A stretch of 14,510 nt of DNA, taken from Chitinophaga pinensis (GTDB lineage Bacteria; Bacteroidota; Bacteroidia; UKL13-3). Each line of letters begins with the position of its first letter. The first letter of the stretch is position 1. The notes beneath the pieces were generated by a model. That model searched no databases. It had not been told where the DNA came from and was given only the letters and a program-made list of their open reading frames with translations. Below, in pieces: positions 10,888-13,838 of this stretch. Made by a program: the position numbers and the translations under genes. The stretch is from the NCBI GenBank assembly GCA_945876985.1, contig CAMCQX010000008.1, positions 1 to 14,510 on the forward strand, given 5' to 3'.

Positions 10888-11157
10888 ATGGCTAAAGAAT
10901 CAGTAAAAGCTCGTCAACGTAAAAGAGAAAAGTTAAACGCTCAATTCGCAGATAGACGCAAAGCTCTTAAAGAAGCGGGTGACTATGTAGGTTTACAAAA
11001 ATTACCTCGTAACTCATCATCAGTTCGTTTACATAATAGATGTAAATTAACAGGTAGACCAAAAGGTTACATGAGTGATTTCGGTATTTGTCGTAATCAA
11101 TTTCGTGAACTAGCTTCAATGGGTAAAATACCAGGAGTGACTAAAGCTTCGTGGTAA
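10888..11157 (+). CDS. rpsN: 30S ribosomal protein S14, zinc-free long form
   Basis: S14 is a head protein of the 30S subunit. The 89 residues are the long form: the [52 protein letters not shown] block is complete. The two CxxC pairs of the short zinc-binding form are absent, with only isolated cysteines in NRCKL and GICR. This indicates no structural zinc. It ends a run of tightly spaced genes; the following 123-base gap (11158-11280) contains a new promoter and a leader structure. Confidence 0.97.
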
Positions 11158-11171
11158 TTAAAAAAATAAAT

Positions 11172-11202
11172 TTGCTTAAGGTGTATAAATTAATTATATT
11201 TG
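11172..11202 (+). promoter_or_regulatory. Internal promoter driving rpsH and downstream genes
   Basis: TTG at 11172-11174, 20 bases, then a perfect TAnnTTTG (TATATTTG) at 11195-11202, followed by CACCCC. The -7 box and first transcribed bases are the same as at P1 (TATATTTGCACCCC in both). The start should be near 11206-11210, giving a leader of about 70 bases. It lies wholly in the rpsN-rpsH gap and begins 14 bases past the rpsN stop. Confidence 0.85.
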
Positions 11203-11226
11203 CACCCCTTATAAATTTTAACAACA

Positions 11227-11265
11227 CTTAGTTAGTAAGAGTGCCTTTGGCTTACTGCTAACAAG
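11227..11265 (+). promoter_or_regulatory. Candidate S8-binding stem-loop (16S helix 21 mimic) in the rpsH leader
   Basis: The RNA folds as a lower stem GUUAGU (11231-11236) with GCUAAC (11257-11262), extended by CUU/AAG (11227-11229 with 11263-11265) past a bulged A. Above it lies an asymmetric core, AAG (11237-11239) opposite UACU (11253-11256), capped by AG/CU pairs and a GC-containing loop. In 16S rRNA the S8 core is A595-A596-G597 opposite U641-A642-C643-U644, with closing pairs 598-640 and 599-639 above and a stem beginning 594-645 below. All seven core bases match. Pair 594-645 is U-G in both RNAs, while 598-640 and 599-639 differ in sequence but stay paired. It ends 15 bases before the ATG of rpsH, the S8 gene. 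Binding and repression are inferred. Confidence 0.78.
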
Positions 11266-11280
11266 TATAACAATTAAATA

Positions 11281-11679
11281 ATGACAGATCCAATATCAGA
11301 TTACCTAACAAGGTTGCGTAATGCTATCAAAGCGAATCATCGCATTGTAGAAATTCCTGCATCAAATCTTAAAAAAGAAATAACCAAAGTTCTATTTGAA
11401 AATGGTTATATTCTAAACTACAAATTTGAAGATGTAGTAAATCATCAAGGTTCAATAAAAATTGCCTTAAAATATCACCCTATTTCTAAATCATCAGCTA
11501 TTAAAAAATTGGACAGAATTAGTCGTCCAGGTTTAAGAAGATATACCGGAACTGATAATATGCCTAGAGTTATAAATGGGTTAGGTATTGCAGTTTTAAC
11601 TACTTCTAAAGGAGTAATGACTGATAAAGAAGCTAGAAAATTAAACGTTGGTGGCGAAGTATTATGTTATATTTATTAA
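11281..11679 (+). CDS. rpsH: 30S ribosomal protein S8
   Basis: S8 binds the central domain of 16S rRNA at helix 21 and is essential for platform assembly; in E. coli it is the translational repressor of the spc operon. The 132 residues begin TDPISDYLTRLRNAI and end with NGLGIAVLTTSKGVMTDKEARKLNVGGEVLCYIY (99-132), the conserved RNA-binding C-terminal part. The usual STSKG appears here as TTSKG (107-111), a mild change. It has its own promoter and a leader that copies its rRNA target, so it is probably autoregulated together with rplF, rplR and the genes beyond. Confidence 0.98.
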   Translation: MTDPISDYLTRLRNAIKANHRIVEIPASNLKKEITKVLFENGYILNYKFEDVVNHQGSIKIALKYHPISKSSAIKKLDRISRPGLRRYTGTDNMPRVINGLGIAVLTTSKGVMTDKEARKLNVGGEVLCYIY

Positions 11680-11699: not shown

Positions 11700-12254
11700 A
11701 TGTCACGTATAGGAAAAGCCCCAATAAAATTGCCAGCTGGTGTTGATTTTAAAATTAACAGCAACAATTTAGTTTCCATTAAAGGACCTAAAGGCGAATT
11801 GCATCAACAAATTGATGCCGATATTACAGTAACTTTAACTGATAGTGAAATATTAGTTACTAGACCTACTGATCACAAAAGACATAGAGCATTACATGGT
11901 TTATACAGATCACTAATTAATAATATGATTGTTGGAGTAACCGCTGGTTACATCAAACGTCAAGAATTAGTTGGTGTTGGTTTTAAAGCTACTAATGAAG
12001 GTAATATTTTAGATTTAATTCTTGGTTTTTCACATCATATTTATTTTGAAATACCAAAAGAAATTACAATTAAAACTGAAACTGAAAAAGGTAAGAACCC
12101 AATCATTACCTTAGAAAGTGCCGATAAACAATTGATTGGTCAAGTAGCTGCAAAAATTCGTGCACTAAGAGCTCCTGAACCTTACAAAGGCAAAGGTATC
12201 AAGTTTGTTGGTGAAGTTCTTAGAAGAAAAGCGGGTAAAACAGCATCTAAATAA
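11700..12254 (+). CDS. rplF: 50S ribosomal protein L6
   Basis: L6 lies near the GTPase-associated centre and the sarcin-ricin loop. The 184 residues show MSRIGKAPIKLPAGV (1-15), the LHGLYRSLINNMIVGVTAGY segment and the signature near the C-terminus, RAPEPYKGKGIKFVGEVLRRKAGK. It has an unusually good Shine-Dalgarno sequence for this genome. Eight bases separate it from rplR. Confidence 0.97.
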   Translation: MSRIGKAPIKLPAGVDFKINSNNLVSIKGPKGELHQQIDADITVTLTDSEILVTRPTDHKRHRALHGLYRSLINNMIVGVTAGYIKRQELVGVGFKATNEGNILDLILGFSHHIYFEIPKEITIKTETEKGKNPIITLESADKQLIGQVAAKIRALRAPEPYKGKGIKFVGEVLRRKAGKTASK

Positions 12255-12262
12255 TATAATTA

Positions 12263-12610
12263 ATGGCAACCAAAAAAGAATTACGCAGAATTAGAGTAAA
12301 AAAAGGAATACGTGGTCGTATTAAAGGTACTACTCAAAAACCTCGCTTATCTGTTTTTAGAAGTAATAAAGCTATTTATGCTCAAATTATTGATGATATT
12401 ACTGGTAAAACTTTAGTATCATCTTCTTCTAGAGCAATAACTGAAAATATTTGTAAAGTAGAATTATCCAGTATAGTTGGTAAAGATTTAGCTCAAAAAG
12501 CAATAGCTTCAGGAATTAGTGAAGTAGTTTTTGACAGAAATGGATATTTATACCATGGACGTATCAAAAGCTTAGCTGATGGTGCTAGAGAAGGAGGTTT
12601 GAAATTTTAA
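12263..12610 (+). CDS. rplR: 50S ribosomal protein L18
   Basis: L18 binds 5S rRNA in the central protuberance alongside L5. The 115 residues begin with a lysine- and arginine-rich segment (KKELRRIRVKKGIRGRIKGT), then the core KPRLSVFRSNKAIYAQIIDD and the C-terminal VVFDRNGYLYHGRIKSLADGAREGGLKF. It is followed by the second largest gap inside the ribosomal cluster (57 bases), which holds an inverted repeat. Confidence 0.97.
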   Translation: MATKKELRRIRVKKGIRGRIKGTTQKPRLSVFRSNKAIYAQIIDDITGKTLVSSSSRAITENICKVELSSIVGKDLAQKAIASGISEVVFDRNGYLYHGRIKSLADGAREGGLKF

Positions 12611-12667: not shown

Positions 12668-13192
12668 ATGTCTACAGAAAATATAAAAAGAGTAAAATCA
12701 AGCGAAATCGAGCTTAAAGAAAGAGTAGTTTCAATTAACCGTGTAGCGAAAGTTACAAAAGGTGGACGTACTTTTAGCTTTTCCGCTTTAGTTGTTGTTG
12801 GAGATGGAAATGGTGTAATTGGATACGGTTTAGGTAAAGCTAACGAAGTAACTGATTCTATTAGAAAAGGTGTTGAAGATGCTAAAAAGAATTTATTAAA
12901 AGTTCCCGTTCTTAAAGGTACTATTCCTCACGAACAAACTGGTAAATACGGTGGAGGAAGAGTATTCTTAAAACCTGCTGCTCATGGAACTGGTGTTATT
13001 GCAGGTGGTGCAATGAGAGCTGTTTTAGAAAGTGCTGGTGTTACAGATGTACTTGCTAAATCTAAAGGATCATCTAATCCTCACAATGTGGTAAAAGCTA
13101 CGGTTGATGCTTTATTGAATATGCGTGATGCTTATACAATTGCTAATACTCGTGGTATTTCAATGAAGAGAGTATTTAACGGAGGAGAATAA
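12668..13192 (+). CDS. rpsE: 30S ribosomal protein S5
   Basis: S5 lies at the mRNA entry side with S3 and S4 and affects decoding accuracy. The 174 residues show the double-stranded RNA-binding type N-terminal domain ([47 protein letters not shown], 15-61), with the loop where spectinomycin-resistance changes occur unaltered. They also hold the C-terminal [37 protein letters not shown]. It precedes rpmD by four bases. Confidence 0.98.
13181..13185 (+). promoter_or_regulatory. Shine-Dalgarno-like GGAGG before rpmD
   Basis: GGAGG at 13181-13185 lies 11 bases before the rpmD ATG at 13197, inside the final Gly-Gly-Glu codons of rpsE. The distance is slightly long, but an overlapping GGAG shifted three bases would improve it. 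It may be coding constraint only. Confidence 0.4.
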
Positions 13193-13196
13193 AATA

Positions 13197-13376
13197 ATGG
13201 CCATAGTAAAAATTACATACATAAAAAGTATTATTGATAGACCAGAAAATCAAAAGCGTACAATAAAAGCTTTAGGTTTTTCTAAACTTAACCAATCACG
13301 TGAAGTTGAAGGCACACCTGCTGTATTAGGTATGATCAATAAAGTTGCTCATTTGTTAAAAGTTGAAAACGTTTAA
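13197..13376 (+). CDS. rpmD: 50S ribosomal protein L30
   Basis: L30 is a small peripheral 50S protein. I translated 59 residues from the ATG at 13197 to the TAA at 13374-13376: MAIVKITYIKSIIDRPENQK, then RTIKALGFSKLNQSREVEGT, then PAVLGMINKVAHLLKVENV. These show the L30 pattern: K-I-T-x-I-K-S at the N-terminus, the R-P-x-x-Q-K-x-T-I-x-A-L-G-F helix, and the G-M-I-N-K-V-x-H-L-L-x-V end. The place between rpsE and rplO confirms it. It is easily missed because of its size. Confidence 0.96.
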   Translation: MAIVKITYIKSIIDRPENQKRTIKALGFSKLNQSREVEGTPAVLGMINKVAHLLKVENV

Positions 13377-13388
13377 ATACATAAATTT

Positions 13389-13838
13389 ATGAATTTACAT
13401 AATTTAAAGCCAGCAGCTGGTTCAATAAAAAAAGAAGGAAAAAGAATAGGTAGAGGAGAAGGAAGTGGAAAAGGTGGAACTGCAGCTCGTGGTAATAAAG
13501 GTGCCGGCTCTAGAAGTGGTACAAGTACAAAAAGAGGTTTTGAAGGTGGTCAAATGCCATTATATAGACGTTTACCTAAAGTAGGTTTTAAAAATTTCAA
13601 TAGAGTAGAATACGTAGGTATTAATCTTGATAAATTACAACTTATTGCAACTGAAAAGAATTTGAAATCAATTGATTTTGACATATTAGTTGCTAATGGT
13701 GTTGTAAGTAAAAATGGCCTTGTTAAAATATTAGGTAGAGGTGAAATTAATATTGCTTTAGATATTAAAGCACATGCTTTTTCTGCTTCAGCTCAAAAAG
13801 CGATAGAAGCAATTGGAGGTTCAATAGCTAAAATTTAA
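13389..13838 (+). CDS. rplO: 50S ribosomal protein L15
   Basis: L15 is a late-binding 50S protein with a long extended N-terminal part threading into the rRNA. The 149 residues begin MNLHNLKPAAGS. A Gly/Arg/Lys-rich extended segment follows (KRIGRGEGSGKGGTAARGNKGAGSRSG, about 18-44), then the FEGGQMPLYRRLPKVGFKN motif and the C-terminal signature VKILGRGEINIALDIKAHAFSASAQKAIEAIGG. It lies 12 bases after rpmD and three before secY, the standard spc order. Confidence 0.97.
   Translation: MNLHNLKPAAGSIKKEGKRIGRGEGSGKGGTAARGNKGAGSRSGTSTKRGFEGGQMPLYRRLPKVGFKNFNRVEYVGINLDKLQLIATEKNLKSIDFDILVANGVVSKNGLVKILGRGEINIALDIKAHAFSASAQKAIEAIGGSIAKI

Follow-up and report, generated by a model that had tools for sequence, protein, structure and literature searches.

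Results

A hairpin in front of rpsH reproduces the S8-binding core of 16S rRNA

The rpsH leader in the stretch of DNA that we analysed (the window, 14,510 nt) carries a hairpin that reproduces the S8 site of 16S rRNA helix 21. We propose that it is an autogenous ribosomal protein leader with S8 as its predicted ligand, a reading to which we give a probability of roughly 0.86. The window corresponds to the str-S10-spc cluster in a draft genome from the phylum Bacteroidota, with the end of rpsN at 11157 and the start of rpsH at 11281. The hairpin lies in this gap, between an internal promoter and rpsH, and the features on which the proposal rests are as follows:

11171..11174, + strand, TTTG, −33 element of a Bacteroidota-type promoter, from the sequence
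11195..11202, + strand, TATATTTG, −7 element, from the sequence
11227..11229, + strand, CUU, 5′ arm of the outer stem, pairing with AAG at 11263-11265; compensatory changes among relatives
11231..11236, + strand, GUUAGU, 5′ arm of the lower stem (11236 = U594); a single pair takes as many as five standard pair types among 31 distinct sequences
11237..11239, + strand, core AAG (A595, A596, G597); descriptor match, as in E. coli rrsH, invariant in the 16-sequence family alignment
11240..11252, + strand, AG (598-599) at 11240-11241, apical loop UGCCUUUGG and CU (639-640) at 11251-11252
11253..11256, + strand, core UACU (U641, A642, C643, U644); descriptor match, relatives having U or A at 641
11257..11262, + strand, GCUAAC, 3′ arm of the lower stem (11257 = G645); compensatory changes among relatives
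11263..11265, + strand, AAG, 3′ arm of the outer stem; compensatory changes among relatives
11266..11280, + strand, A/U-rich spacer of 15 nt to the rpsH start codon, within what is presumed to be the initiation region
11281..11679, + strand, rpsH, ribosomal protein S8 (NCBIfam S8 equivalog, 170.8 bits, cut-off 119), proposed repressor and first target
11700..12254, + strand, rplF (L6), proposed co-regulated
12263..12610, + strand, rplR (L18), proposed co-regulated
12668..13192, + strand, rpsE (S5), proposed co-regulated
13197..13376, + strand, 59-aa ORF, candidate rpmD (L30) from position and reading only
13389..13838, + strand, rplO (L15), proposed co-regulated

The hairpin (11227-11265) has the sequence CUUAGUUAGUAAGAGUGCCUUUGGCUUACUGCUAACAAG, and it is its asymmetric internal loop, AAG opposite UACU, that reproduces the rRNA site. 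Compared with E. coli 16S rRNA (rrsH), in which bases 594-599 are UAAGUC and 639-645 are GAUACUG, all seven core bases (595-597/641-644) are identical. Below the core, U594.G645 corresponds to 11236.11257 and the lower-stem pairs GUUAG/CUAAC to 11231-11235/11258-11262; above it the window has AG (598-599)/CU (639-640) where E. coli has UC/GA. The S8 core contains the triples (G597-C643)-U641 and A595-(A596-U644) (PMC4176348), and the window hairpin has A595, A596-U644, G597-C643, U641, A642 and a paired 598-640. The sequence-only reading had described this same fold (GUUAGU/GCUAAC, AAG opposite UACU, AG/CU, with U-G below the core) and the agreement of the seven core bases with E. coli; both can be read in 11227-11265 and rrsH, and the gene that it placed directly downstream is an intact rpsH.

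The register claimed for the hairpin needs a qualification. In the minimum-energy fold of the lone window sequence, AG is paired with UU and neither G597 nor C643 has a partner, and some relatives favour on folding a shifted register, AGU/ACU (register II). We prefer the helix-21 register because the long upper stems of other relatives fit only that one: L016 and L299 have the stem AGUUAUU/AAUGGCU immediately above the core, and L298 has AGUUG/CAACU. In single-sequence folding the stability of the window hairpin was unremarkable (z −0.8 to −1.2). Among 20,000 dinucleotide shuffles of the gap, the E. coli-exact core occurred with 5 bp below it in 28 and with 4 bp in 67, and a relaxed core with 4 bp in 180. 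The support for an S8 site derives from comparison, not from the single sequence.

The promoter was assigned from TTTG and TAnnTTTG, which we take to be the Bacteroidota promoter consensus. A TAnnTT[T/C]G element was present in all 13 family gaps examined, with TTTG ~20 nt before it in nine of them by reading; outside that set, L016, L298 and L299 had no such element by reading. Transcription would start at about 11208-11212. An inverted repeat at ~11176-11212 overlaps the −7 element, and its arms appear to co-vary among relatives by reading and folding; an operator, a partial terminator or a processing stem are candidates for it.

The stem covaries around a fixed core in the window's family

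Among the 30 relatives first read, 17 (L001-L016 and L018) had the hairpin, with the lower stem in the variants GUUAG/CUAAC, GUCGA/UCGGC, GCGGG/CCCGC, GCCGG/CCGGC and GCAAG/CUUGC around a constant part AAGAGU...GGCU[U/A]ACU. The AG/CU pairs above the core were invariant across the 16-sequence family alignment (A1), in which cells with both sides of a pair changed numbered 28, compared with 7.4 in shuffles. From 16 sequences of the window's family, which match it by construction, we built the covariance model R1 and searched 60 family genomes, part of which had supplied training sequences. R1 matched once each in 43 of the 60, and all 43 matches ended 10-19 nt before rpsH. We detected rpsH in 53 of these genomes; the remaining seven have no R1 match, and neither do 10 of the 53 (five in g14, three in g5 and one each in g12 and g4). 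Within the family, the subclade of L020, L021, L023, L313 and L314 has instead of an R1 match a divergent hairpin, GAAAGU[G/A]C...G[U/C]AACUC, which is perhaps a shortened S8 site. In this subclade hairpin, G.U and A.C exchange at one place. No hairpin was seen in L019 when folded, or in L309-L312 by reading.

In the 43 matches (31 distinct), both sides of a pair had changed in 53 cells, compared with 12.6 in shuffles. Their covariation score was 0.390, whereas shuffles gave 0.175 and slid controls no more than 0.149; the alignment was fitted to R1 and hence leans towards it. The number of pairs with both sides changed (7 vs 5.3, reached in 54 of 500 shuffles) and of further pair types (16 vs 15.3, 230 of 500) was not outstanding, and the same held for the 16-sequence alignment. 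Altogether, three of five covariation measures lay beyond all 500 shuffles in both alignments, and all five did so in a further leader alignment. Conservation of the core and compensatory pairs in relatives had been set beforehand as the check on the sequence-only reading; we found the motif in 43 of 60 genomes, with a covarying stem and a fixed core, and the reading withstood the check. Since the core is nearly invariant within the family, covariation inside it comes only from comparison with other families, for which common origin is unproven. The G-U pairs on the + strand point to an RNA of that strand.

The core is also found before rpsH beyond the window's family

When searched against 16S rRNA, R1 gave no helix 21 match because the parts above the core differ, and we therefore used a descriptor made from the rRNA core. 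It asks for 4 bp below, a free 594.645, A595, A-U or G-C at 596-644, G597-C643, paired 598-640 and 599-639, U or A at 641, and A642. Two of these places were relaxed: G596-C644 was admitted after seeing the Sphingobacteriaceae leaders, and A641 after seeing other leaders and the 16S rRNA of the family. On both strands of the whole window the descriptor had a single match, 11237-11256, which is this hairpin. There is no second core match in the window and hence none near rplE, in line with the earlier claim that the site is placed differently from that of E. coli. In 16S rRNA it found helix 21 in 23 of 24 loci, as the sole match in 17 and with one extra match in six, and missed it in one. In the E. 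coli spc region, intended as a positive control, it had no match, even with only 2 bp below the core.

Of the 80 named loci, which are those with the S8 most like the window's, 37 matched at most 110 nt upstream of rpsH, and 18 matches fell elsewhere in the 348,860 bases scanned; one of these loci (L036) repeats the genome of L007, L045 is nearly devoid of upstream sequence, and the match of L091 may be chance. We found rpsH in 288 of 296 genomes and drew a further set from the places listed for them. It comprised 108 upstream regions, from 71 genomes of the same class (all but the window's own and G036) and 37 of other classes chosen for family spread. Of the 108 regions, 35 matched, whereas 50 shuffles gave 0.38 matches on average and never more than 2. 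The 35 comprise 30 of the 71 from the same class, one of which (L182) is off its leader by reading, and five of the 37 from other classes (L215, L221, L225, L242 and L245). The same core thus recurs before rpsH in families and classes beyond the window's own, which supports the sequence-only reading.

We then left single positions of the descriptor free, in counts that include loci used to set it and related loci that are not independent. With 596-644 free, 87 of 212 distinct upstream regions matched, 63 with G-C, 24 with A-U and none with any other pair. Freeing 598-640 gave U-A 65, A-U 17, C-G 4, U.C 1 and G.U 1, whereas 599-639 was always a standard pair (C-G 41, U-A 23, G-C 22, A-U 1). Position 641 of the leaders was A in 71 and U in 16, and 594.645 was mostly A.A or C.A. 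With 597-643 free the matching loci rose to 106 (G-C 87, A.A 12, U.U 12, A-U 6, U-A 5 and others); we take the extra matches as chance, showing what the fixed G597-C643 contributes.

The core occurs in two versions. Leaders of Sphingobacteriaceae (Pedobacter, Mucilaginibacter, Sphingobacterium, Olivibacter, Parapedobacter) are typically GAUAG-[C/A]-AGGUC...GA[A/U]ACC-A-CUAUC, with UC/GA above the core as in 16S rRNA but G596-C644 within it. In family f21, probably Flavobacteriaceae from its place beside Moheibacter in the tree, AGGUU...A[A/U]ACC was present in 26 of 29 genomes (for example GAUUA-A-AGGUUC...GAAAACC-A-UAAUC), with lower-stem mismatches in five of the 26; the other three genomes have gaps of just 18-21 nt. 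The A596-U644 version occurs in the window's family, in Moheibacter (L096) and in four deep rows of the tree. In Sphingobacterium (L090, L097) we also observed a terminator-like hairpin and a U run between rpsN and the rpsH leader.

The 16S rRNA varies at 641 as well. All six 16S sequences attributed to the window's family have A641 (AAGUC...GAAACU, that is, AACU); four (L031-L034) come from family genomes, and the other two, L116 and L120, belong to the genomes that also contain L039 and L038, both placed in the family by the tree. A very divergent 16S match, L035 (G005), was dropped, and the window's own draft genome yielded no 16S sequence. The window leader, with U641, therefore differs from its clade at this base; other leaders of the family do have A641. 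Sphingobacteriaceae 16S has U641, and the leaders use both U and A.

Distribution of the core and other rpsH leaders

We placed the core on a FastTree tree of joined ribosomal proteins, with local support only, that kept 119 of 157 rows after those >93% identical were dropped. The core was found in other classes of the phylum, in Cytophagales, in the window's family, in the Moheibacter/f21 group and in Sphingobacteriaceae; the ten rows from other classes include the five matches by choice, and the share there is meaningless. Presence and absence of the core took at least 13 changes on the tree, and A-U versus G-C at least four. The core was not found in Bacteroidales (type C), in a second Bacteroidia group (type D) or in several short-gap lineages. 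Such a scattered distribution is compatible with one old origin and several losses, and equally with repeated origins; the independent evolution that the sequence-only reading had raised as possible is one of these two histories. We put at about even odds the broader proposal that S8 feedback sited at rpsH is the ancestral form of spc control in Bacteroidota. It would be older than the classes, use two interchangeable cores (A596-U644 and G596-C644), have undergone several losses or replacements by unrelated rpsH leaders, and be a closer copy of helix 21 than the E. coli operator.

Other leaders occur at the same place. Bacteroidales have just before rpsH a conserved and different leader, AAAUAUUGUC...GAU[U/C]AAUUUAA, without the S8 core (L100, L102, L104, L107, L108, L110, L112, L113, L115, L148 and L152); Rfam gave no match for the Bacteroidales-type leader in the tested loci L071, L100 and L107. 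A third rpsH leader, UAUAAUUAUCC...GGAUAA[C/G/A]AUAUA, has a 2x1 internal loop (L040-L044, L046, L052, L053, L061, L067, L079, L081, L082, L087, L095, L098 and L114). We considered type C and type D leaders as S8 sites, but inspection by eye gave no fit to the S8 topology. In Cytophagales (L022, L047, L050, L070, L094 and L140) an S8-like core is farther upstream, about 95-101 nt from rpsH, and is followed by a promoter-like TTTG-N19-TATCTTTG and a terminator-like hairpin, GCAGCCCG...CGGGCUUGCUUUUUU; with this layout, another mode of control may operate there.

Discussion

Proposed mechanism and its alternatives

The hairpin would be present, a few nucleotides ahead of the start codon of rpsH, both in transcripts begun at the internal promoter and in those that read through from rpsN. 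S8 in excess of free 16S rRNA would bind the helix-21-like internal loop and clamp the hairpin, 30S initiation at rpsH would then be hindered, and less S8 would be made. Through translational coupling, rplF, rplR, rpsE, rpmD and rplO would probably be lowered too. The 3′ edge of the hairpin is 15 nt from the start codon, with a similar distance across the family, and bound S8 should therefore hinder initiation at rpsH. It may also be that S8 binds but acts through mRNA decay or a premature end of transcription and not by blocking initiation, an alternative that we think unlikely while granting it an appreciable chance. The S8 control of E. coli also involves mRNA processing and retroregulation, and the distant Cytophagales core precedes a terminator-like hairpin; against this, no terminator-like site was found in the window between 10850 and 11320, and the spacing to the start codon is near-constant in the window's family.

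We regard it as very improbable that the leader serves another ribosomal protein or a general factor, with the S8 core a coincidence. The type C and D leaders of other Bacteroidota lineages, which do without this core, mean that a hairpin before rpsH need not bind S8. However, 35 of the 108 further genomes have the exact topology upstream of the S8 gene when 0.38 are expected, and 596-644 is exclusively G-C or A-U across 87 loci; both are hard to obtain by chance. Scarcely probable at all, in our view, is a reading in which S8 plays no part and the inverted repeat serves as a DNA operator or as a processing stem for an RNase. The hairpin does adjoin the promoter, where the second inverted repeat overlaps the −7 element, but its asymmetric internal loop and G-U pairs fit an RNA of the + strand, and it lies downstream of the likely transcription start. 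An S8-binding leader remains our preferred reading.

Comparison with known systems

With a relaxed E-value, Rfam gave for the window a single chance-level match, elsewhere than the hairpin, and at the gathering score no match in 17 loci spanning the leader types. The literature that we covered, as titles, abstract openings and passages of largely open-access papers, describes no Bacteroidota leader for S8. The leaders of Bacteroidia and Flavobacteria described by Eckert and Weinberg in 2020 (L13, S4, S15 and S16; PMC7247131) are likewise clade-specific and located before ribosomal protein genes; none of the 20 leaders in Table 1 of that paper targets S8 or rpsH, and the main text mentions neither rpsH nor uS8. 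The portions of Weinberg 2010 (PMC2864571) that we covered name no S8 leader. According to the relevant passage of a 2024 review (PMC10931766), spc control is unknown in B. subtilis or other species, and that of V. cholerae is presumed to be E. coli-like.

The E. coli spc operator, at the start of rplE, shares with the proposed leader an mRNA site modelled on the S8-binding loop of helix 21, through which S8 represses spc genes (passages of PMC4176348 and PMC10931766). It differs in place, the window site being in the leader of rpsH itself, behind an internal promoter, with no core match near rplE. By our own fit the E. coli operator would read A-C-G at 595-597 and, since the descriptor misses it, the Bacteroidota leaders seem to be closer copies of helix 21. 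With 16S helix 21 the leaders have in common A595, R596-Y644, G597-C643, W641, A642 and paired 598-640/599-639, and those of Sphingobacteriaceae also have U598 C599/G639 A640 exactly as in the rRNA. In contrast to helix 21, their apical part is short, their stems are others, 594.645 is often A.A or C.A, and G596-C644 occurs in 63 of 87 leader loci, compared with A596-U644 in the 24 16S loci. Work on an S8 SELEX aptamer, in the passages of PMC4176348 to which we refer, shows that S8 tolerates changed bases: G-(G-C) can replace A-(A-U) as an isosteric triple, and the core can be flanked by an A.A pair. That aptamer does not have the natural core and rearranges when it binds S8, whereas the leaders retain the natural topology.

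These leaders offer a testable candidate S8 site for a large phylum, including the growable Pedobacter, Mucilaginibacter and Sphingobacterium. Nature has in effect tested how S8 recognises RNA, through the compensatory A-U/G-C swap at the triple A595-(596-644) and through position 641, where U and A exchange in mRNA as well as in rRNA. The leaders also suggest that one protein-RNA contact has come to be used at different genes of a single gene cluster. Control of S8 by its own product through rRNA mimicry is of a known kind; its place, its lineage and the G-C version appear to be new.
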